Shown here: piece after piece, positions 5,472 to 34,512 of the stretch
How positions within the stretch are numbered: the first letter of the stretch is position 1
Layout of the letters: each line of letters opens with the position of its first letter
IMG/VR virus record: IMGVR_UViG_3300025913_000013
Span: 1 to 36,823 of that record
Length of the DNA stretch: 36,823 bases
Origin: a virus
Strand: one strand, 5' to 3'
Translations under genes and position numbers: made by a program
Notes under the pieces: model-generated
Databases searched by the model: none
Seen by the model: only the letters and a program-made list of their open reading frames with translations
What the model was told of the DNA's origin: nothing

Positions 5472-5759
5472 ATGTCTATTGTGAGGATCATGAACGACTA
5501 CGCAGAATTCCCACCTTTGGATTCTTTCAAAAGAGTCCTCCGAAGTAGCCCCCAATCAGCCGATTTATTCGCCTCGTTATGGAAGCTAAAACCGAAATCC
5601 AATCGGATTTCAATCAAAAGAAAAGACATCAAGAAAAACTTTTTGATTTCACCAACCCTTTTTCGGAATCACTTGTTGGCAATAGGCCGATTAGAGCTTA
5701 TCACTTTTGAAGAAACGACAGATTTTTTTCTTATAGATTTCTATGAAAATGACAACTAA
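5472..5759 (+). CDS. Hypothetical protein, possible winged-helix
   Basis: This 95-residue protein is basic and unrecognised. The central part, with SADLFASLWKL, then SIKRKDIKKNFLISPTLFRNHLLAIGRLELITFEET, has the spacing of a winged helix-turn-helix: a recognition helix around SPTLFRNHLLAIG, then a strand. It could be a second regulator or a replication accessory in the switch region. The start at 5472 has no clear ribosome site; an ATG at 5490 with GAGG close upstream is an alternative. Confidence 0.6.
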   Translation: MSIVRIMNDYAEFPPLDSFKRVLRSSPQSADLFASLWKLKPKSNRISIKRKDIKKNFLISPTLFRNHLLAIGRLELITFEETTDFFLIDFYENDN

Positions 5760-7247: not shown

Positions 7248-7610
7248 ATGAATAAGATTGAATTTATAAGCCACGATTCCTTTCCAGAGGATGAGTACAC
7301 AAAAGAGCTTGTTTACTTATGCCTTGAGGGGAAATATCGCATCGCTTATGTGCGTAAAGCTGCGAAGAATGGCGGCTTGTTTTGGAGTGTTGCAAGCGTT
7401 GGTGCTACCCGTAACGGGCAAAAAGAGTTCTTTCCAGCGTTCTTGCAAGATTCAAATTTCCTTGAGAAAGACATCAAGGATTTTCTTGACAAACGCAAAT
7501 GGGAAAGCGCTGGGCGTTCAGTGCATCAATCCCATGCCACGGATTCGGCAAGTTATGCCCAACCCCGTTCAATGGATGAGGTAGCACAAAATGAACAGCT
7601 CCCGTTTTGA
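7248..7610 (+). CDS. Phage protein with SSB-like C-terminal tip
   Basis: This protein of 120 residues has a compact N-terminal domain with beta-type segments (KYRIAYVRKAAKNGGLFWSVASVG) and FFPAFLQDSNFLEKDIKDFL, a Ser/Gln/His-rich linker, and an end MDEVAQNEQLPF. The short acidic, Pro-Phe terminus resembles the protein-interaction tip of bacterial SSB (DDIPF type). It lies between the replication and RusA-like genes. A single-strand binding role is plausible but not proven. I chose ATG 7248 because AAGGAG precedes it; the frame is open 12 codons further upstream. Confidence 0.6.
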   Translation: MNKIEFISHDSFPEDEYTKELVYLCLEGKYRIAYVRKAAKNGGLFWSVASVGATRNGQKEFFPAFLQDSNFLEKDIKDFLDKRKWESAGRSVHQSHATDSASYAQPRSMDEVAQNEQLPF

Positions 7611-8148
7611 GGATGCCTTAATTTCAAGCTCTAAGGCTCCAAGGCAGGCAAAACGTAAGGCTACTAATGGCAAGGTAGCCAAGAGAGTAAAAACTCGCGT
7701 AGAATCGAAATTAAAGCTGTTTATGGAAAAGGGCGATGGATGGCTGGAAATTACGATGCCAATTGTGACGGTCAGCGAAGCAAATGGCGGTGTTAAAACT
7801 TCTTACACACGCAACGGCAAAACTTGTTACAAATCCGAACATTGGTCGGATCAACATCGAAGGCATAAATTGCAAAAAGGCACCGTAGCTTTATCGCTTC
7901 GACCTCATCGCAATAACATCTCGATGCCATGCACGATTAAGCTGACGCGATATGCGCCTGATAAGCTTGATCGCTTTGATAATCTTCCGATGTCCATGAA
8001 ATGGATTTTGGATGCAGTGTGCGAAATCATCACCGGAGACTATAGGCCGGGTAGAGCCGACGCACATGAGGGTATTCTTGATGTAACATACGGTCAAGAA
8101 GTCTCAAACGCCTATGGCGTTAAGGTTAGAATTCAGGCCACCACCTGA
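7591..8148 (+). CDS. RusA-like Holliday junction resolvase
   Basis: This 185-residue protein has the RusA-type core in its last ~90 residues: a hydrophobic strand IKLTRYAPDKLDRFDNLP, then MSMKWILDAVCEIITGDY, then DAHEGILDVTYGQ. The D..D pair before NLP and the later Asp correspond to the carboxylates that hold magnesium in RusA. These enzymes cut four-way junctions made during recombination or replication. The N-terminal ~60 residues are basic and longer than in E. coli RusA. It starts inside the previous gene (20-base overlap). Sequence similarity is judged by eye. Confidence 0.65.
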   Translation: MNSSRFEDALISSSKAPRQAKRKATNGKVAKRVKTRVESKLKLFMEKGDGWLEITMPIVTVSEANGGVKTSYTRNGKTCYKSEHWSDQHRRHKLQKGTVALSLRPHRNNISMPCTIKLTRYAPDKLDRFDNLPMSMKWILDAVCEIITGDYRPGRADAHEGILDVTYGQEVSNAYGVKVRIQATT

Positions 8149-8496
8149 GTTCACTTTCAGATTCTTTTCGTATTCAGTTTTGTAATTAATATCGTCGGGT
8201 ATTGGAGGGTGAGGGCGCCATGCAATCACATCGTAAACAACCGTGCCGTTAGGCTCATGACTTCCATCTTTTTCTTTATGCTCGTCCCATGTTCTCCAAT
8301 CAAAAGGAATGCTACCTCTATCATATTCACCAACAGAAACAACGTAAAGAACGCCGTCTCTGAACTCTAACTTTCTAAGCAAAAGAATTCGCTTCGGGGA
8401 GTCACAAGGCTTGCCATACCAATCAACAATGTCATCTTCGGGAAGTTGTATCTTTGGGTCAATCCATCCATGTTCAAATATTTCTTCTTCTTTCAT
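8104..8496 (-). CDS. DUF551-like hypothetical protein
   Basis: This 130-residue protein has the flavour of DUF551 phage proteins: an N-terminal W-I-x-P...LPE pattern (HGWIDPKIQLPEDD), a central beta region, and a C-terminal VIAWRPHPPIPDD motif. Members are small and of unknown function. It is the last gene of the long minus-strand accessory block and overlaps the convergent RusA-like gene by 45 bases, tail to tail. No good ribosome site is visible. Confidence 0.55.
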   Translation of the reverse strand: MKEEEIFEHGWIDPKIQLPEDDIVDWYGKPCDSPKRILLLRKLEFRDGVLYVVSVGEYDRGSIPFDWRTWDEHKEKDGSHEPNGTVVYDVIAWRPHPPIPDDINYKTEYEKNLKVNSGGGLNSNLNAIGV

Positions 8497-8511
8497 TGGT
8501 TTTCTTGGTTG

Positions 8512-10336: not shown

Positions 10337-10567
10337 TTAAATCTGTTGGAATTTGTCTTTAGCATCGAATTCTTTAATCATTTCTGCAACCTGATAGGTG
10401 AGCTTAATGAGATGATTAATTTTCTCTTTGGTAGTGTGTCCAAAGTGAAGTTGAAGCGCCAAATATGTAGCAATGATATCTAAATCACTATCACCGGGCA
10501 AATTCAGCTTTAAGAATATGTCATTCAAAAGCATGGCATATTGGCTATTAACTTTGAGTTTACTCAT
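10337..10567 (-). CDS. Small hypothetical protein coupled to the recombinase
   Basis: This 76-residue protein starts at ATG 10567, which overlaps the recombinase stop as ATGA, so its translation is likely coupled. It is helical, with LLNDIFLKLNLPGDSDLDIIATYLALQLHFGH. The frame is open 11 codons further upstream inside the recombinase gene, but coupling favours the inner ATG. No family is recognised. Its linkage suggests a recombinase accessory role, which is unproven. Confidence 0.55.
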   Translation of the reverse strand: MSKLKVNSQYAMLLNDIFLKLNLPGDSDLDIIATYLALQLHFGHTTKEKINHLIKLTYQVAEMIKEFDAKDKFQQI

Positions 10568-11223
10568 TTCATTACTCTCTTTACTGAAACGTGATTCCAA
10601 GGGCCATTTCTGTTCATTCGTTTGTAGAAATTCAGTTGATTGGCTATCTCACGAAGAGAGTTACCTTCCGACTTCATTTGTTGCATTAACTTTAATGTAT
10701 ATTGCTCATCTGTATCAAGCTCAATATGTACATTATCTGTACATAGCCTGTACCCGTAAGGTATATGCCCTGTACGTTTACCATCCTTTTTTAGTACAGA
10801 TAATGCGTATTTTGTGCGTTCGCCAATAATAAGCCGTTCATACTCTGCGAACGCATCAACCATGCGACGCATCAATATTGCCGAAGGGTCTTTACCATCG
10901 TTGACATCACCGCTTGCGCTAACAAGACGCGCTTTCTTTCGTTCAACAGCTCTTTCGATCATTGCGTTTACAATTGGGTCACGGCCGATTCGATCGCGCT
11001 TTGCAATAAGCAACACATCATCTTTTGAAAGGATATTAAGAGCCGAAAGTAGGGCCGGGCGCTTCTCCATTTCAAGAGCGCCGCTATAACCCTCATCGCA
11101 GAATTCTAAAACATGGGAATTGTTAGGCACCAGCTTTAAGCAAATCTGTCTTTGTGCTTCTAAGCCTAATCCTGAGCTAACTTGTTGATCTGTACTTACC
11201 CTAAGATAGATTATGTATTTCAT
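10564..11223 (-). CDS. Serine recombinase (resolvase/invertase family)
   Basis: This 219-residue protein has the full small serine recombinase catalytic domain: YLRVSTDQQ with Arg8 and nucleophile Ser10, GLEAQR, DEGYSGALEMEKRPAL, and the KRDRIGRDP motif, then VDAFAEYERLIIGERTK at the start of the long helix. The C-terminus, GHIPYGYRL...GNSLREIANQLNF...WNHVSVKRVMK, is a single DNA-binding module like the short end of the Recombinase family. It is too short to be a large serine integrase. With ParA nearby, dimer resolution is the likely job; DNA inversion is the alternative. Start TAATG overlaps the upstream stop. Confidence 0.88.
   Translation of the reverse strand: MKYIIYLRVSTDQQVSSGLGLEAQRQICLKLVPNNSHVLEFCDEGYSGALEMEKRPALLSALNILSKDDVLLIAKRDRIGRDPIVNAMIERAVERKKARLVSASGDVNDGKDPSAILMRRMVDAFAEYERLIIGERTKYALSVLKKDGKRTGHIPYGYRLCTDNVHIELDTDEQYTLKLMQQMKSEGNSLREIANQLNFYKRMNRNGPWNHVSVKRVMK
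10727..10743. promoter_or_regulatory. 17-bp partition-type box inside the recombinase gene
   Basis: TGTACATTATCTGTACA has the same TGTA...TTnnnTGTACA layout as the boxes around parA. Its inner part, ATTATCTGTAC (10732-10742), is repeated in inverted form at 10794-10804 as GTACAGATAAT, and further CTGTAC copies lie between. This could be a recombination site, a centromere box or chance within coding sequence. Confidence 0.35.
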
Positions 11224-12851: not shown

Positions 12852-13173
12852 TTTCTTCTCGATTAATTCTTTGGTTATATTCTTCTATTTCCATTGTACC
12901 TACATCAATGTAGAATGTGCCATCCTGTTTAATGCAGAATTCAGGCTCTGTAAAAGCATGAGTCTTTTTATAAATGTTAACGAAAGAATGAAATGTTTTT
13001 GACGCCATTTCGACAATAATACTTAATGTTTCATCATCAACATCAAACGTAAAACAATTCCAGCCTTCAAAAGTGATTTTATAAAAATTAGTTGGCATCC
13101 AATTAAGCGGTATTATTTTATGCTCATCTTCAACTAAAATATTTGAAAAGACATTCCTTATATAATCACTCAT
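12841..13173 (-). CDS. Hypothetical protein downstream of the partition genes
   Basis: This 110-residue protein is mainly beta-type, with WMPTNFYKITFEGWNCFTFDVDDETLSIIVEM and later DGTFYIDVGTMEIEEYNQ. It overlaps the 3' end of the ribbon-helix-helix gene by eight bases and so is probably on the parA transcript. No family is recognised. Confidence 0.55.
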   Translation of the reverse strand: MSDYIRNVFSNILVEDEHKIIPLNWMPTNFYKITFEGWNCFTFDVDDETLSIIVEMASKTFHSFVNIYKKTHAFTEPEFCIKQDGTFYIDVGTMEIEEYNQRINREENER

Positions 13174-13420
13174 CTTTTTGTTCTCTCTTTAGCTTTTCAT
13201 GAATGGCTTCGAGTATCCATCCCGTGCGAGTTATTCCGACTCTTTCCTCAACTGCTTCATCTACATCGCCCATCATTTCAACGGTGATGCGTAAATTCAT
13301 ATAAGTCCATTTCTTGCTTTCCGCGACTTGATCCTCCTTGACCTTGGCGCCTTTTTCAATTAAAGCATCGACATCGACTTCTTCAATCTTCGGCTTTTCC
13401 AATTTTTTCCTTACCGACAT
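13166..13420 (-). CDS. Ribbon-helix-helix partition partner (ParB/ParG-like)
   Basis: This protein of 84 residues has a flexible basic/acidic N-terminus and a C-terminal ribbon-helix-helix domain. WTYMNLRITVEMMGDVDEAVEERVGITRTGWILEAIHEKL contains the beta strand (NLRITVE), helix 1 and the TRTGWILEAI helix 2 typical of CopG/Arc folds. Such small proteins are the centromere-binding partner in type Ib partition systems, and their mobile N-terminus stimulates the ParA ATPase. The gene follows parA by 42 bases. GGGG precedes ATG 13420; a TTG two codons upstream is less likely. Confidence 0.75.
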   Translation of the reverse strand: MSVRKKLEKPKIEEVDVDALIEKGAKVKEDQVAESKKWTYMNLRITVEMMGDVDEAVEERVGITRTGWILEAIHEKLKREQKDE

Positions 13421-13441
13421 ATACAACCCCTATATATTAAA

Positions 13442-13458
13442 TGTATTTTCAATGTATG
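13442..13458. promoter_or_regulatory. 17-bp box between parA and its partner gene
   Basis: TGTATTTTCAATGTATG differs from the box at 4112-4128 at only a few positions. It lies in the 42-base gap between the parA stop and the partner start. A weaker inverted variant, TGTACATTTATTGTATA, lies at 13475-13491 in the last codons of parA. It may be a centromere or operator site. Confidence 0.5.
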
Positions 13459-13462
13459 TTAC

Positions 13463-14116
13463 CTATACCGATAGTGTACATTTATTGTATATAAAATCAT
13501 AAAGATCGCTCATCTCTTGAATGGCTTTCTTATCGGCTAACTTCATTTCTGAAACGCCAAGTCCATCACTGGCCGCATTCGCAAAGGATTTTCGCGAGCC
13601 TATTGTGGATTCAATGCACTTGATTTCTTCGCACTCTTGGAGGATGCTAATTGTATCCTCGTTATCGGTGCCTTTAGAATCTGCTTGATTGATTACGGCA
13701 AACGCTTGTAATTTTGGGTTTGCCGGTTTCATTTCTGCAATCAATGCCTTAACATCGCTGAGAGTCCAAATATCTAAGGAGCGAGGTTTAAAAGGAATGA
13801 TGCAGATATCCGCAATTGAAATCGCAGCTCTTAGAGAGGTTGTTTCCCGACCACCAACATCAATAATGACGTCATCGTAATCGACTTTCATCCTCTCTAG
13901 CTGTGATCTCAGGGCTTTTCCGCCTAATTGAATGGTTGACCATTTCGTCAAGATGTTTAGTCCATCTCTTTGATTCGCCCATACGGAGGTTGATTTTTGT
14001 TCGTCTGCATCAACTAGTAAGACTTTCTTACCGCTTGCCGATCTAAGTACGGCAAGATTCGTGGCAATGGTGGTTTTGCCTGTGCCGCCCTTAATTCCAC
14101 CGATTACGATGATCAT
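13463..14116 (-). CDS. parA: ParA-type partition ATPase
   Basis: This 217-residue protein is a short ParA/MinD-like ATPase. The deviant Walker A is KGGTGKTT at 9-16, Walker A' is VDADEQ at 35-40, and Walker B is DDVIIDVGGR at 81-90. No N-terminal HTH is present, so it is of the type Ib (ParF-like) class, which pairs with a small ribbon-helix-helix protein, as found here. It would move plasmid copies on the nucleoid so both daughter cells inherit them. In a phage genome it argues for plasmid prophage maintenance. GGGGG precedes the ATG. Confidence 0.9.
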   Translation of the reverse strand: MIIVIGGIKGGTGKTTIATNLAVLRSASGKKVLLVDADEQKSTSVWANQRDGLNILTKWSTIQLGGKALRSQLERMKVDYDDVIIDVGGRETTSLRAAISIADICIIPFKPRSLDIWTLSDVKALIAEMKPANPKLQAFAVINQADSKGTDNEDTISILQECEEIKCIESTIGSRKSFANAASDGLGVSEMKLADKKAIQEMSDLYDFIYNKCTLSV

Positions 14117-28823: not shown

Positions 28824-30065
28824 ATGTCAGCACCTTCCCCGTTTCAAGTAGCTAGAGAAGCCTCGAATAATTTCGGAAGCGCATTTAAAAGAGTTAGCGA
28901 TGAGAACGCCATTGAAAAAATTCTCTCGCAAGCCATGAATACCGGCAACCCTGAAATGATTCAAAATAGTATTGGACAAATACTTTCTCAGGTATCTCCG
29001 GAGCGTCAAGGTGTGGCATTGCAATATCTGCAAAACACCTTTAGCAATCTTCAACAGAAACAAGAAAAAGCTAAGATTGAAGCTAGAGATCGAGCCGCAG
29101 CGCAAGAAGCCGGCTATACCTATGGGGCACCTCCTCAAGTTCAAGGCCAACAGGTAAAGGATAAAGCGAAGGGTGGAAGGCTAGCTCAATATGGGCTTGG
29201 TGGTGAACAGCCTAATGCCGGACAAATGGGACAACCCGGACAAATACAACCTGCATTAGCCGGAAATCCTGCAAATCCTGCCGCTGGTCAACCGCCTTTA
29301 TCAACTCCAAATCAAGCGCCTGAAAACGTATTTAAAAAACTTTCTAAAGAACAGCTTATCGTTGCGACGGGAGCGCCTGATCGTGAGATTTCTGAGCCAG
29401 CAAAAGCCGAGCTTCGACAAAGAGAGCATGAGGAGAAATTGGCTGAGAAAGACGTCAAGCGTACTCGCGATGAAGAACTCCAATTTCATAAAGAAGGGGA
29501 GAAGTACGATGAAGAACTGTTTAAACAAACGAAGATTGCCAAGAAACAAGTTGATACCATCGGCGATATTGAAAAAGCAATTGATAGCGGCAAAGTAACA
29601 CCTACATCATTGGCTAACATTTTCAAAGGTTTTGGAAAGATAGGCGACAAGATTTCCGAAGCATTGATTAATAAAGATGAAGCCACAATTCTCGCATCTA
29701 TTCCTCAGCTTTTGGAAGGATGGAAAGAGGTTTTCGGTGTTCGTTTAAGCGATGCCGACTTAAAGCTTTTACAAGACAAATTACCCTCCATTGGTAAGAC
29801 AGCCGAGGCAAACAAAGCTATTGTCAAAGTATTAAGAAAATACGCTGATATGACTCTTTTAAGATCGACCATTGCGAGAGAAATAAAAGAAGCGAATAAG
29901 GGATTAAGGCCGCTAGGTTATGCTGATAAAATCGAACAAAGATTTGATGACATGATCGCACCGGTGAAAATCATTAATCCTAAAAATGGCAAAGAAATTG
30001 AAATTCCAGCCTATAAAGTTTCCGATGCAATTAAAGCAGGGGCAAGGTTATCAAATGGACAATAA
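28824..30065 (+). CDS. Ejection protein candidate 2 (P22 gp20-like by position)
   Basis: This 413-residue protein is helical, with a Gln-rich N-terminal region (GQILSQVSPERQGVALQYLQ), a Pro/Gly/Gln low-complexity linker at about 100-165, a charged helical stretch (KDVKRTRDEELQFHKEGEKY) and a C-terminal folded region. This composition suits an internal virion protein released on infection. It ends 11 bases inside the next gene. Confidence 0.55.
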   Translation: MSAPSPFQVAREASNNFGSAFKRVSDENAIEKILSQAMNTGNPEMIQNSIGQILSQVSPERQGVALQYLQNTFSNLQQKQEKAKIEARDRAAAQEAGYTYGAPPQVQGQQVKDKAKGGRLAQYGLGGEQPNAGQMGQPGQIQPALAGNPANPAAGQPPLSTPNQAPENVFKKLSKEQLIVATGAPDREISEPAKAELRQREHEEKLAEKDVKRTRDEELQFHKEGEKYDEELFKQTKIAKKQVDTIGDIEKAIDSGKVTPTSLANIFKGFGKIGDKISEALINKDEATILASIPQLLEGWKEVFGVRLSDADLKLLQDKLPSIGKTAEANKAIVKVLRKYADMTLLRSTIAREIKEANKGLRPLGYADKIEQRFDDMIAPVKIINPKNGKEIEIPAYKVSDAIKAGARLSNGQ

Positions 30066-32370
30066 CTTTGATTTTTCTCTCTATGACAATGAGGATGATT
30101 CTCCTATTGTGCAAGTAAAACAACCGCCTCAGAAACAGAATCAACCGAAACAAAAGGCTGAAATTTTTGATTTCGATGCTTATGATTTTTCTGAGCCTGA
30201 GCAAGCTGCATCTAAATCACCTCAAGCTTCTCAAGAAAATTTACCGCGATCTAAAAGAGATAAACCTTTTGAAACTGCGCCAGTATCGAAAGAAGATTAC
30301 GCTAAAATGTCCATGTCTGAAAAGATTCAATACGCTAAGGATTTGGAGAAAGAGCAAAGATATGAATCCTCAAGAGCATTTACAAAGAATGCCGCGAGTG
30401 CGTTAAGCTTTGGTTTCTCCGAAGACATTCCGGGATTTAAACCCGAAGAAGGGGAAGACCCTGTTGCTGGATGGGCTGGAACTGTTGCAGGTCATACACC
30501 GGCAATTTTAGGAGCTGGAAAACTTGTAGGGGCAGGATTAAATCTTGCTTACAGAAATGCTCCGAAAGTTTTACAACCTCTTTATCGTTTTCTGCATGCC
30601 TTTGGAACAGGTGCAACCGTTGAATCAGGAAAGCAAGGTGCAAATGCAATTCGCGGAGAAGAAGTTAACCTATCTGAAATACCAATTCGTGGAGCTGAAT
30701 TTGCAGCTTTTGACACTGTAATTCGTGGACTAGGGGCGTTGGGTAAAAAGTTTCTTCAAATATCACCTGCTCATCAAGCTCAAATTCTTGAGCAAGGTGT
30801 TATTCCATCTGATTTACCAAAAAGCCAATATGAGACAGCCGAGGAAGTTCTTCGACATCTACGCCAAACGAATCAAGCACCTAACAATTTCCCTCGACCC
30901 GGCGGCCCTCCCCCTCCTCCGGATGGTGGCACTCCTCCTCCCGGCGGTAGCGCTCCACCGGCACGAATAAATCCTAATCGAGTAAGGGCAAATGGTGAAG
31001 ATTTAGGTTTAAGGCCAGCTCCTCAACCACAATCGAATAGGCCGGATTTAGCCGATTCCGTCGGGGATATTTTCTCTCGTGAAAGGTTCTATAATACCAC
31101 GCAAGGCGGCCAAGCTTTTAAAAACGAAATCATGAATATAGATGAAGACGTTTATAGGGGCGTTGGTGAGCTTTACAATACTTCGAGAGCTTTAAATTCA
31201 GAGATAAACACTATCCAACCTCAGCTTGTGAATAGATTAGAGGCTAGAGTTGCTGAATTGAGTGATATTCCTGAGCCTTCCGATGTTCAGAGAAGACTTT
31301 TAAGAGCATCTCAAAACGTGTTAAATCGATTAGCTCAATATGAAAATGTCTTAGATGAGGCAGGAAATGTCATTGGTAGGGAAATTACCGGATACACCCC
31401 GATAAATAATCAAACATTGATCGATCAGGTGCAATCATTACGTCAGATTATCGACTATGATTTTGCTCACGGTAACACTAAGAACATTTTCCGTCCTTTA
31501 ATCAATGACTTGCAAGATGCAGCCATTCGATCAGCCGAGCAGATGGGCGCACCGGAAGCGGCTGAAGCTTTGAATGAGGCAAGAAGCGCTTATCGTGCAT
31601 GGGTAGAGGCTTTTGATAATGATTATATTCGGCCTTTCAGAGATGCAAGCAATCAAGATTTTAGCAAGCTCTTTAAGAGTGCTTTAGATTTTGATGAATC
31701 TAACATGATTAGAAACATTTTGAATCTTTCAGAGAACGGCCAACGTTTAGGCGCTGCATCAACCCGTGAGATAGTTGAGAAGCACTTAGGAAAATATTTT
31801 GAAAATCCAAGATCAGCAACGCCACGAGAATTTGATAAAGTTGTCAGAGAGCTTGAAGCGGTTATAACACCTGAGCAAGCTCAACAAATTCGAGATCAGT
31901 TTAGAGAAGCTCAAAGACGTTTTGGCTTCCGTGCTAGAGAAGCACCTAAGCGTCAACCTACCAATGATGAAAGAATTGCGGCCAAGTATGAAGGGAAGGA
32001 GCCGGAAGATATTCAAAAATTGATGAATAAACGCTCAGGCATCAAGCAACTGCGTGAGGATTTAAACACCCCTCAAAAGCAAGCTACTTTTCAAAGACTT
32101 CAACAACAAAAGATTCGCTCAATACTGCGAGAAGGTAATATCGAGAAGGATTTTACCGGTGACGATCTTTATCGTTTCTTGAATAAGGAGCATAATTATG
32201 AGCTTCTTTCAGAGATGTTAGGGGAAAGTGAAACAGAAGCAATGAGGCAGGCTGCAAAAGAAATAGGAAAGTCTCAGGTTAAATCAGAACTTAGAAAGAA
32301 AAACGTTTCAAAGGCTGCACATAAAGTTGCTGCGTTTAAAGCTCTTGAGATTATTCTAGGGATTCTTTAA
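30055..32370 (+). CDS. Ejection protein candidate 3, large, with proline hinge
   Basis: This protein of about 771 residues is the largest in the genome. After an acidic/polar start it has a hydrophobic amphipathic region (AGWAGTVAGHTPAILGAGKL, then VGAGLNLAYR), a proline hinge (PGGPPPPPDGGTPPPGG) near residue 280, and a long helical body (LYNTSRALNSEINTIQPQLV and similar). The C-terminus ends in a hydrophobic helix, AFKALEIILGIL. It fits the third ejection protein, like P22 gp16. I chose ATG 30055, 23 codons into the open frame, because it overlaps the previous stop and follows AAGG. Confidence 0.6.
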   Translation: MDNNFDFSLYDNEDDSPIVQVKQPPQKQNQPKQKAEIFDFDAYDFSEPEQAASKSPQASQENLPRSKRDKPFETAPVSKEDYAKMSMSEKIQYAKDLEKEQRYESSRAFTKNAASALSFGFSEDIPGFKPEEGEDPVAGWAGTVAGHTPAILGAGKLVGAGLNLAYRNAPKVLQPLYRFLHAFGTGATVESGKQGANAIRGEEVNLSEIPIRGAEFAAFDTVIRGLGALGKKFLQISPAHQAQILEQGVIPSDLPKSQYETAEEVLRHLRQTNQAPNNFPRPGGPPPPPDGGTPPPGGSAPPARINPNRVRANGEDLGLRPAPQPQSNRPDLADSVGDIFSRERFYNTTQGGQAFKNEIMNIDEDVYRGVGELYNTSRALNSEINTIQPQLVNRLEARVAELSDIPEPSDVQRRLLRASQNVLNRLAQYENVLDEAGNVIGREITGYTPINNQTLIDQVQSLRQIIDYDFAHGNTKNIFRPLINDLQDAAIRSAEQMGAPEAAEALNEARSAYRAWVEAFDNDYIRPFRDASNQDFSKLFKSALDFDESNMIRNILNLSENGQRLGAASTREIVEKHLGKYFENPRSATPREFDKVVRELEAVITPEQAQQIRDQFREAQRRFGFRAREAPKRQPTNDERIAAKYEGKEPEDIQKLMNKRSGIKQLREDLNTPQKQATFQRLQQQKIRSILREGNIEKDFTGDDLYRFLNKEHNYELLSEMLGESETEAMRQAAKEIGKSQVKSELRKKNVSKAAHKVAAFKALEIILGIL

Positions 32371-32462
32371 TCAGAAGTTAGGTAGTAAATTGCTACCCAA
32401 AAGGCGAGAGCCGGAGAGCCAAAAACAAGCAATCCGGCCATAAAAACACCGATCGTAATCAT
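32367..32462 (-). CDS. 31-residue membrane peptide, coupled to the upstream membrane protein
   Basis: This tiny reading frame starts at an ATG overlapping the stop of the 69-residue gene (ATGA, 32459-32462). It encodes MITIGVFMAGLLVFGSPALA followed by FWVAIYYLTSD: essentially one transmembrane helix. Its end overlaps the convergent stop of the large ejection gene by three bases. Being translationally coupled to another one-helix protein makes a real product plausible. It may be a holin-type partner or antiholin. No family match can be made at this length. Confidence 0.5.
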   Translation of the reverse strand: MITIGVFMAGLLVFGSPALAFWVAIYYLTSD

Positions 32463-32668
32463 GGATCGGTTCTCGGCTTATTTCTTTCATTCAAGGTGCA
32501 AAGTCTGCCGTGGAAATCTTTCATTTCTTTGTTGATTTCCTCTTTCCAACCTCGAATTTCAGTCTCAAAAGATTTCATGTCTGATCTGAGCCAAGAAATA
32601 AGAGCAATATTTGACCCGATGATTGCGGCGGCTGTTCCTATTACTGTTAGAATTATTGTTAAGTCCAT
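32459..32668 (-). CDS. Membrane-anchored coiled-coil protein, holin or spanin candidate
   Basis: This 69-residue protein has an N-terminal transmembrane helix (LTIILTVIGTAAAIIGSNIALISWL) and a helical tail containing EINKEMKDFHGRLCTLNERNK. The EMKDFHGRLC stretch looks conserved, and I have an impression of similar phage proteins, without being able to name a family. TM plus coiled coil is common for phage lysis or exclusion proteins. It starts on the upstream stop (TAATG) and ends on the downstream start (ATGA). Confidence 0.6.
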   Translation of the reverse strand: MDLTIILTVIGTAAAIIGSNIALISWLRSDMKSFETEIRGWKEEINKEMKDFHGRLCTLNERNKPRTDP

Positions 32669-32958
32669 TATTTACCGTCCTTTCCTACATAAACGTGATT
32701 ATAAACCGCTGCCATTTGATCGGCAACTTCTTGATCCTTTGGGTCATTCGCTTCGATCTTAATAGGGCATCCAAACATAATTCGATTTAACTCGTTCATG
32801 TGTTCATGCCTAAAATCAATCTCCGATTGAAGCTCTTTTAATCGTAAGGCTTTTTTCAATTCTTCTCGCTTTTCTAACTCTACCATCATCCTTTGAGGCA
32901 TAGTCTCAAGCAGGTTAATAAGAAGATCAAGCTTTTTTTCAATTTGGTGATTGCTCAT
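32668..32958 (-). CDS. Helical hypothetical protein in the membrane cassette
   Basis: This 96-residue protein is helical at first (IEKKLDLLINLLETMPQRMM, then RLKELQSEIDFRHEHMNEL), probably a coiled coil, and ends in a small domain with VADQMAAVYNHVYVGKDGK. No family recognised. Starts on the stop of the ribbon-helix-helix gene (ATGA). Confidence 0.55.
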   Translation of the reverse strand: MSNHQIEKKLDLLINLLETMPQRMMVELEKREELKKALRLKELQSEIDFRHEHMNELNRIMFGCPIKIEANDPKDQEVADQMAAVYNHVYVGKDGK

Positions 32959-33119
32959 TTTGGCTGTTGCATCCGTATTTGATTAATTTTATCTATTATT
33001 GCCAGCCTTATAAACTCACCCATACTTTTCTCGGTCAGCATACACATGGTTTTAAGCTGCGTATGGAGGTGATGCGAGATTTGAAATGTCGTCGTCTTGT
33101 GATGACTTTTTTCTTTCAT
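32955..33119 (-). CDS. 54-residue ribbon-helix-helix regulator
   Basis: This short gene encodes MKEKSHHKTTTFQISHHLHT, then QLKTMCMLTEKSMGEFIRLA, ending IIDKINQIRMQQPK. The pattern of a beta strand (TTFQIS), helix 1 and KSMGEFIRLAI helix 2 is a clear Arc/MetJ/CopG ribbon-helix-helix fold. It would act as a dimeric repressor, probably of its own minus-strand operon from the promoter at 33387-33415. Its stop overlaps the next start as ATGA (32955-32958). Confidence 0.75.
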   Translation of the reverse strand: MKEKSHHKTTTFQISHHLHTQLKTMCMLTEKSMGEFIRLAIIDKINQIRMQQPK

Positions 33120-33120
33120 A

Positions 33121-33369
33121 TTAAGCCATTATTATAAGGTCGATGTTATGCTTATGTAAGTTGCTATGTTTTATTTTCCTTTTAAGACCTTTAAATTGAA
33201 AATAACATTCATCTAAATCAAACTGATAATGTGCAGGGCATTCAAATATTCTAAAAGTATTAGAATGTATTAGCTGCCCAAAAAGATTTCTCATCACTTC
33301 ATCTTTAGGCCATAAAAAAATATCTCTATTGGTTCGATTCACAATCTGAATCACCGACGCTATCTTCAT
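33121..33369 (-). CDS. Hypothetical protein, first gene of the minus cassette
   Basis: This 82-residue protein is basic and mixed in structure (MKIASVIQIVNRTNRDIFLW, then FRIFECPAHYQFDLDECYFQ, then FKGLKRKIKHSNLHKH). No family recognised. It follows GAGGTGAG and a strong promoter. Its job in the interrupting minus-strand cassette is unknown. Confidence 0.55.
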   Translation of the reverse strand: MKIASVIQIVNRTNRDIFLWPKDEVMRNLFGQLIHSNTFRIFECPAHYQFDLDECYFQFKGLKRKIKHSNLHKHNIDLIIMA

Positions 33370-33386
33370 TACTCACCTCTTATTCA

Positions 33387-33415
33387 ATTATTCAAGTTTC
33401 TGACGTTTTTGTCAA
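33387..33415 (-). promoter_or_regulatory. Strong promoter of the minus-strand cassette
   Basis: On the minus strand TTGACA (plus 33410-33415) is a perfect -35, and AATAAT (plus 33387-33392) a 5/6 -10, with 17 bases between. The start falls near 33380, just before the gene at 33369. This is one of the best vegetative promoters in the window and suggests expression independent of the late program, for example from the prophage. Confidence 0.7.
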
Positions 33416-33483
33416 GATTTCCTATCCCATGAATGTTCGGGCTGTGTAATTTGAAATTGAAACTAACCTAAAAGGAGGGGAAA

Positions 33484-34161
33484 ATGCCCAAATTTGCAAG
33501 ACCAAATTCATACACTGGCAAGCAGTCGAATCAACAATGGACGGGCGATGTTCGCGCGTCAACACTGCCAGAAACACTAGCCGGTTCAAGCTCTCAATTG
33601 TATGTGTCACCTGCGACATTGGCGGCCGCTGGAACAGCTCTAATTCCTGCCGCAACCACACTAGTTGCCGGAAAGACATTTCTAGCTACAAACGCCGAGG
33701 CTGTGACAGGAACAGCAAACACTAACAAGGCGATCATCCCTTCATCTTTAACAGCTCGCTTGCAAGCTCCGGGCGCAATCGGAGGCACAACTCCGGCCGC
33801 TGGTACTTTTACCGCTGTCAATGCAACTAGCATAGGAGCAACGACTCCCGGAAGCGGCGCATTTACAACTTTAGCATCTACTGGCGCATCCAATATTGCG
33901 TCGGGTGCCGGTGTTGCAGCTCAGTTAGGAAACTCTACAGGAACACTAGGATTTTTTGGCTCTGCTGGAGCAACGAAAGTGACACAAGGCGCCATAACAA
34001 ACAGCGTCACTGCTGGCGGTGTTGCTGGTACAATTGCCAACTACACTGATTTATCAACGTATGCTAACGATGCGGCTGCAATTCGCAACGATATTTACCA
34101 GCTTGCATTGGCCTTATCTAACGTTGTTTCTGCATTGAGAAGCTACGGATTACTCGTATAA
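33484..34161 (+). CDS. Tail fibre protein
   Basis: This 225-residue protein is Ala/Thr/Gly-rich. It has two copies of a repeat (APGAIGGTTPAAGTFTAVNA and ATSIGATTPGSGAFTTLAST) that is common in phage fibre shafts. The C-terminus has TDLSTYANDAAAIRNDIYQL then ALSNVVSALRSYGLLV, a helical end that is frequent in fibre tip or attachment parts. AAGGAGGGG precedes the ATG. It probably attaches to the tail and helps host recognition. Confidence 0.75.
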   Translation: MPKFARPNSYTGKQSNQQWTGDVRASTLPETLAGSSSQLYVSPATLAAAGTALIPAATTLVAGKTFLATNAEAVTGTANTNKAIIPSSLTARLQAPGAIGGTTPAAGTFTAVNATSIGATTPGSGAFTTLASTGASNIASGAGVAAQLGNSTGTLGFFGSAGATKVTQGAITNSVTAGGVAGTIANYTDLSTYANDAAAIRNDIYQLALALSNVVSALRSYGLLV

Positions 34162-34254
34162 ATTTGATGTGAATTCTTATTTGATTGTAAGGCAAACATA
34201 AAATTTTATAGAGTATGAATTTAAACGAAAACACTAAAAAAAAAGGTAAATTCA

Positions 34255-34512
34255 ATGCAAAAACCAGTGACCCAATTTACAAGTGATTGCGAAAGAGCAA
34301 AAATTTATGTGGATAATGACATGCCAATTGGCGTTTTTCATGACTTCCTAATGTCCATCAAAGGATTGATGGTCGATCGCATGGTTGCCGCTCACCAAGA
34401 GCAAACAGCTCAAGCGGAAGCCGCAAAACAAATGCCTCCTCACGAAAGCGAATTGCCAGCAAGTGAAGGATGCGAATCTCAAGGTTGCGCCGATGGTGCA
34501 AAGGGGGAATAA
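34255..34512 (+). CDS. Small hypothetical protein
   Basis: This 85-residue protein has a helical core (MPIGVFHDFLMSIKGLMVDRMVAAHQEQTAQ) and an acidic, Cys-containing tail. AAGGT precedes the ATG, and its stop overlaps the next start (TAATG). It may be a fibre chaperone or part of the tail. No family recognised. Confidence 0.55.
   Translation: MQKPVTQFTSDCERAKIYVDNDMPIGVFHDFLMSIKGLMVDRMVAAHQEQTAQAEAAKQMPPHESELPASEGCESQGCADGAKGE

Follow-up and report, generated by a model that had tools for sequence, protein, structure and literature searches.

The metagenomic virus contig IMGVR_UViG_3300025913_000013 was analysed over its whole 36.8 kb (36,823 nucleotides, here called the window), with a focus on a minus-strand cassette of five small genes that interrupts the plus-strand late genes. 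The cassette lies after the last ejection-type gene and before the first fibre gene, and both plus-strand late blocks flanking it consist of virion-type genes; the label ejection-type was assigned by position. A first-pass annotation of the sequence had described five overlapping minus-strand genes with a strong vegetative promoter at 32367–33415, and had read them as an inserted, self-regulated unit. Its gene list proved correct. The locus, with lengths in amino acids (aa), is laid out as follows.

29986–32370, plus strand: last ejection-type late gene, 794 aa, in the position of P22 gene 16
32367–32462, minus strand: one-helix micropeptide, 31 aa, overlapping the end of the ejection-type gene in tail-to-tail orientation
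32459–32668, minus strand: one-helix membrane protein with a C-terminal coil and a KDFHGRLC motif, 69 aa
32668–32958, minus strand: ORFc, helical/coiled-coil protein, 96 aa
32955–33119, minus strand: ribbon-helix-helix (RHH) repressor, 54 aa, Arc-sized
33121–33369, minus strand: ORFa, predicted compact beta-rich protein, 82 aa (predicted local distance difference test, pLDDT, 88)
33380–33395, no strand assigned: candidate RHH operator, TTGAATAATTGAATAA on the minus and TTATTCAATTATTCAA on the plus strand, overlapping the −10 and centred on AATT
33387–33415, minus strand: operon promoter, −35 TTGACA (33415–33410), 17 bp, −10 AATAAT (33392–33387)
33447–33462, plus strand: AT-rich element upstream of the fibre gene, TAATTTGAAATTGAAA
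33484–34161, plus strand: first fibre gene (MPKFARPNSYTGKQSNQ...), transcribed divergently from the RHH operon, matching phrog_910 (tail collar fibre, 8e-7)

Between adjacent cassette genes there is either a 1-bp gap or an overlap of 1–4 bp, and the last of them runs 4 bp into the stop end of the ejection-type gene. An alternative open reading frame (ORF) of 39 aa at 32371–32490 is probably spurious. We judge the five cassette genes to be real rather than chance ORFs, because homologues exist for ORFa, the coiled-coil protein, the RHH protein and the 69-aa protein, and because the micropeptide recurs. Homologues of ORFa and the coil are found in the related genome G006 (37–40%), in the same order as in the window. 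ORFc has this relative (40%) and a shorter 64-aa protein of G004 (36%) and is otherwise an orphan. For ORFa and ORFc, a pattern method applied to IMG/VR returned no relatives, and the homologues in G006 and G061 were found only by mapping and by reading the slot. ORFa lies between the operator and the RHH gene in the window, G006 and G061; a fold search in the PDB and BFVD gave no convincing match for it. The 69-aa protein has 25 relatives (44–77%). The micropeptide recurs in relatives by position, length and hydrophobicity: G001, G002, G013, G016 and G030 encode hydrophobic counterparts of 27–35 aa close to this end of the slot.

The predicted strength of the promoter was confirmed, as TTGACA-17-AATAAT matches the consensus at 11 of 12 positions. 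It is the top-scoring site within 32000–34300, a region in which 10 sites were found against 4.9 ± 2.3 expected from shuffles, and the TTGnnn-17-AATAAT spacing is readable also in G001, G004 and G006.

The AlphaFold (AF2) model of the 54-aa protein (pLDDT 91) comprises an N-terminal strand segment and helices 16–29 and 33–51. Its top Foldseek match in the PDB is P22 Arc (1par), followed by CopASO, ParD and other RHH folds; the E-values of the individual matches are weak (0.2 and above), as expected at about 50 residues, and the evidence lies in the consistency of the list. By its predicted strand-helix-helix fold of about 45 residues, which it shares with RHH transcription factors (Arc, CopG and the DNA-binding domains of ParD/RelB-type antitoxins), the protein is a predicted RHH repressor, as had been annotated. 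Its sequence has diverged from the known members of this group: the window protein matches RHH_1 at E 0.19, below the Pfam cut-off, and Arc-like PHROGs at E 0.0015–0.002. Fifteen relatives could be aligned, although too diverged for a pattern scan, and 8 of these 15 family members match Pfam RHH_1, weakly (best 5e-4). A PDB sequence search with the RHH profile returned chance matches only.

The candidate operator is present as a single copy in the window, allowing up to 3 mismatches, and 13 of the 14 genomes tested carry one copy of their own site (up to 2 mismatches), G030 having a weaker second match. Its position is conserved in the relatives: a Gibbs motif sampler recovered it with a log-likelihood ratio (LLR) of 226, compared with 172–183 in shuffles, placing it 89–112 bp from the fibre start where no gene is inserted, and at a matching place in the remaining relatives. 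An AATT centre is usual in these operator-like sites, though not universal.

To relate the sites to the repressors, RHH proteins were divided by their DNA-contacting strand into class I, of the T(T/S)(F/L) type, and class II, of the TT(I/V/L)(Y/W) types. GAATAA half-sites accompany class I proteins in 12 of 15 cases, whereas GACATA occurs in five of seven class II and none of 15 class I sites (Fisher p = 0.0008, with relatives that are not independent). A site-preference score for RHH class gave p = 0.0003, a kind of test that kinship inflates. The class II site has the sequence GACATAATTATGTC, and examples of GACATA sites are TGACATAATTATGTCA in G025 and TTGAATAATTATTCAA in G004. In this set, operator sequence covaries with the DNA-contacting strand of the RHH protein. 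G009 carries a class II RHH inside the class I portal clade, and between G017 (L131, 15940–16182) and G023 (L135, 16510–17455), two phages of about 88% identity, the operator and RHH gene are cleanly exchanged within flanks that are 80–88% identical; the stretch that differs begins ~30 bp ahead of the fibre start and stops shortly before TerL, with an HNH gene extra in G023. Both cases argue that the covariation is not mere descent. Operator and RHH gene appear to be swapped as a unit, as is the case for immunity modules. With an operator-like site that overlies the −10, is unique in the window and covaries with RHH class, the sequence bears out the earlier proposal of a self-regulated unit, and autoregulation by the RHH protein is well supported on sequence grounds.

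Of 50 portal-clade records, 28 match the RHH profile, among them every one of the 17 that reach 30 kb; the 22 negative records are all shorter than 30 kb. The profile matched none of 21 phages that are more distant but also have the 69-aa membrane protein. In the 26 genomes with a recognised fibre start (window included), the RHH and fibre genes are divergent without exception, and their start-to-start distance is 92–124 bp in 22 of them and 316–369 bp in the window, G006, G061 and G003, where a gene is inserted. These comparisons identify the RHH gene as a core gene of near-complete relatives and not an optional insert, which is new here. The picture of an inserted block, for which a presence/absence comparison had been suggested, holds in part: the cargo varies between genomes, but the RHH–operator–fibre core is present in every near-complete relative.

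Cargo is lacking altogether beside the RHH gene in G007, G010, G011, G026 and G060; an apparent membrane ORF in G026 is an artefact, lying antisense inside an 882-aa gene, and G026 has a solo RHH. At least one short one-helix protein is encoded in 14 of 22 ejection-adjacent slots (counted by a hydropathy cut-off, with G026 corrected), and other slots contain a DUF29 protein (G002) or an HNH-like gene (G009). In distant phages without the RHH gene (L086, L089, L106), the 69-aa family occupies an antisense slot as in the window, that of L106 encoding at least three one-helix proteins. In L091 the family member comes after parA and the small partner of parA, and in L095 it is encoded antisense, immediately downstream of the portal gene. 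This distribution is moron behaviour and fits expression outside the late programme.

Some slots are unusually rich or altered. L109 (record G003) has about 10 genes on the RHH strand over 4 kb, on the minus strand upstream of a fibre gene at 5552; several contain strongly hydrophobic segments, and those of the genes that were searched against Pfam gave no match. L089 (record G037, 7287–8498) encodes five consecutive one-helix membrane proteins with a coil in a slot between ejection-type and fibre genes. In L086 (record G035, 7793–8210), a 61-aa putative helix-turn-helix protein, called excisionase-like by inspection, replaces the RHH gene upstream of the 69-aa family.

A comparable arrangement is known from Salmonella phage P22, where the stretch from gene 16 to gene 9 contains sieA, orf59a and mnt in antisense orientation, the Arc and Mnt operators overlie divergent promoters, and SieA acts on ejection proteins encoded beside its own gene. 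The P22 immI region with sieA ('ant moron') has been described as an optional, fast-changing insert, and many P22-like morons lack ant. The window locus shares with it the slot that follows the last ejection gene and precedes the tailspike or fibre gene, a minus-strand unit that has its own promoter and runs tail to tail with the ejection gene, a 53–54-aa RHH repressor with its operator over the promoter, and membrane protein cargo of high turnover. It differs in that searches turned up neither ant nor a second RHH nor sar RNA, in that its RHH gene shares a single leftward operon with the cargo and diverges from the fibre gene, and in that the RHH gene is universal in its clade but optional in the P22-type moron. 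SieA is likewise a phage membrane protein encoded antisense beside ejection genes; it has 162–164 aa and three helices, whereas the window proteins have 31–69 aa and one helix, the longer with a coil. We have not filed the locus as immI, since it lacks ant and no homology to Arc, Mnt or SieA could be demonstrated. By analogy of position, strand, repressor fold and membrane cargo, it would be a counterpart that works like the P22 immI region.

We consider it probable, with some reserve, that the cassette is a locus of the P22 ant moron type, giving an RHH-controlled transcript inside the late block, with exclusion as the likeliest role of its membrane cargo. The Arc/Mnt-like RHH protein would bind the AATT-centred operator, which overlaps the −10 of the leftward promoter that drives its gene, and this repression would yield a separate, self-limited transcript within the late block. 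The minus transcript would make the RHH protein; whether it also makes small one-helix membrane proteins would vary from phage to phage. This transcript would most likely be on in the prophage (or early), to be overridden by opposing late transcription during lytic growth. The repressor–operator pair traded between phages would act as an immunity-type specificity module, and the membrane cargo would most likely block DNA entry of related phages, as SieA does via the neighbouring ejection proteins. Gene order, the position of the operator and its uniqueness in the window, operator/RHH covariation, the module swap and the recurrence of membrane cargo are all read directly from sequence; we infer DNA binding by the RHH protein and prophage expression of the cassette. 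The locus can be regarded as a real, self-regulated moron with a core repressor–operator–fibre unit, while superinfection exclusion by the membrane cargo is a tentative assignment made by analogy.

Several observations weigh against this interpretation. In sequence, hhalign finds no homology between the RHH protein and Arc (E 0.08, probability under 1%) and a marginal match to Mnt (E 0.005, probability 7%), while the cassette protein A4 aligns with P22 SieA, the one SieA type compared, at a probability of 5%, over the membrane-helix region only. The 794-aa gene product has no sequence similarity to P22 gp16, and profile searches for the ant family among the cassette genes gave no match. Palindromicity at the operator (100 versus 88.5 ± 3.4 in shuffles) is modest when taken alone, and for seven RHH proteins outside both classes no class I or II site can be recognised. 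ParA and a serine recombinase only hint at a temperate life cycle, and few relatives have these genes. The RHH–fibre pair lies beside TerL, not the ejection gene, in G017, G023, G047, G048 and G049; the pair is therefore constant and the slot is not. Moreover, given the five relatives with a solo RHH gene, exclusion cannot be what preserves the repressor.

In a rival reading, the RHH protein mainly regulates the level or timing of the tail-fibre gene from the shared intergenic region, with the membrane genes as passengers. It would explain why the pair is kept in both architectures, 92–124 bp apart in 22 of 26 genomes, and why five genomes have nothing else under the RHH gene; a single operator in nearly every genome tested fits it as well. 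However, the operator overlaps the RHH promoter and lies ~60 bp from the fibre-proximal element, and the fibre promoter itself is a candidate only: the AT-rich element, conserved in position (LLR 204 versus 166–172 in shuffles) and found 27–48 bp upstream of the fibre start in the window and relatives, is perhaps a fibre or late promoter element. In the window, G006, G061 and G003, a gene has come to lie between the operator and the RHH gene with no change in the operator–fibre distance, which fits either reading. We regard fibre regulation as the main function as somewhat unlikely. Less likely still is a fibre-linked immunity switch, in which a core RHH of exchangeable specificity would control fibre and cargo together from one intergenic operator and phages of different RHH classes would be hetero-immune at this locus.

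The suggestion of a toxin-antitoxin-like or defence module, with the RHH protein as antitoxin-type repressor and a neighbour as toxin, did not hold up and is now very improbable. RHH antitoxins are structural neighbours of the protein, and there is a weak RelB-antitoxin match (E 0.017, far below its cut-off), but no constant partner accompanies the RHH gene: partners differ between genomes, five genomes have none, and no toxin family was found. No toxin fold turned up for ORFa, a 54-aa RHH leaves little room for a toxin-binding tail, and PADLOC returned only a weak coiled-coil-type match (PbeC, 16 bits, E 7e-4). A lysis or holin-like unit, with the one-helix proteins as lysis effectors, would suit their small size and the partial survey that identified no lysis genes elsewhere in the window by the families searched. 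Yet the cassette runs opposite to the late genes from its own vegetative-type promoter, and in other phages the one-helix family lies in early-type operons or next to parA. An essential lysis unit conserved in all relatives, which the first-pass annotation had named as the finding that would overturn its view, is contradicted, because the membrane genes are absent from several relatives with a complete slot; we think a lysis role highly unlikely.

On the preferred reading as an ant moron-type locus, phages far from P22 have a slot comparable to the P22 moron, with a constant repressor–operator core, swapped specificity classes and recurring membrane cargo. Two questions can then be put to the test: do the repressors of morons control how much tail fibre is made, and do short-tailed phages in general use small one-helix proteins, encoded next to ejection genes, for exclusion?

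The window belongs to a podovirus with a P22-type portal (PF16510, 1e-46) and an N4-gp56-family capsid (6e-47), of a lineage seen in metagenomes only. TerL, a virion structural protein and a tail collar fibre were also recognised, together with a YqaJ/RecE-type exonuclease, Erf, RusA (weak match), ParA and a serine recombinase. Many IMG/VR relatives, identified through the portal, have their late genes in the same order (TerL, portal, coat, tail, ejection-type genes, fibre). No annotated phage is close to the window, and a DNA search of the locus against a phage database gave no match.

Positions 13166–14116 and 10564–11223 encode ParA with a small RHH-like partner and the serine recombinase; these genes, which few relatives have, suggest a plasmid-like prophage. 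ParA is too widespread to indicate a host. A coat protein search of metagenome-assembled bins matched short contigs in two bins only, and these capsid relatives (L147, 98%, and L148, 81%; bins assigned to Bacteroidales and Parcubacteria) offer the only clues to a host, though the contigs are probably misbinned phage. Adjoining the fibre genes, 774–1505 encodes an FkbM-type methyltransferase with a signal-like N-terminus, possibly a surface-modifying moron.
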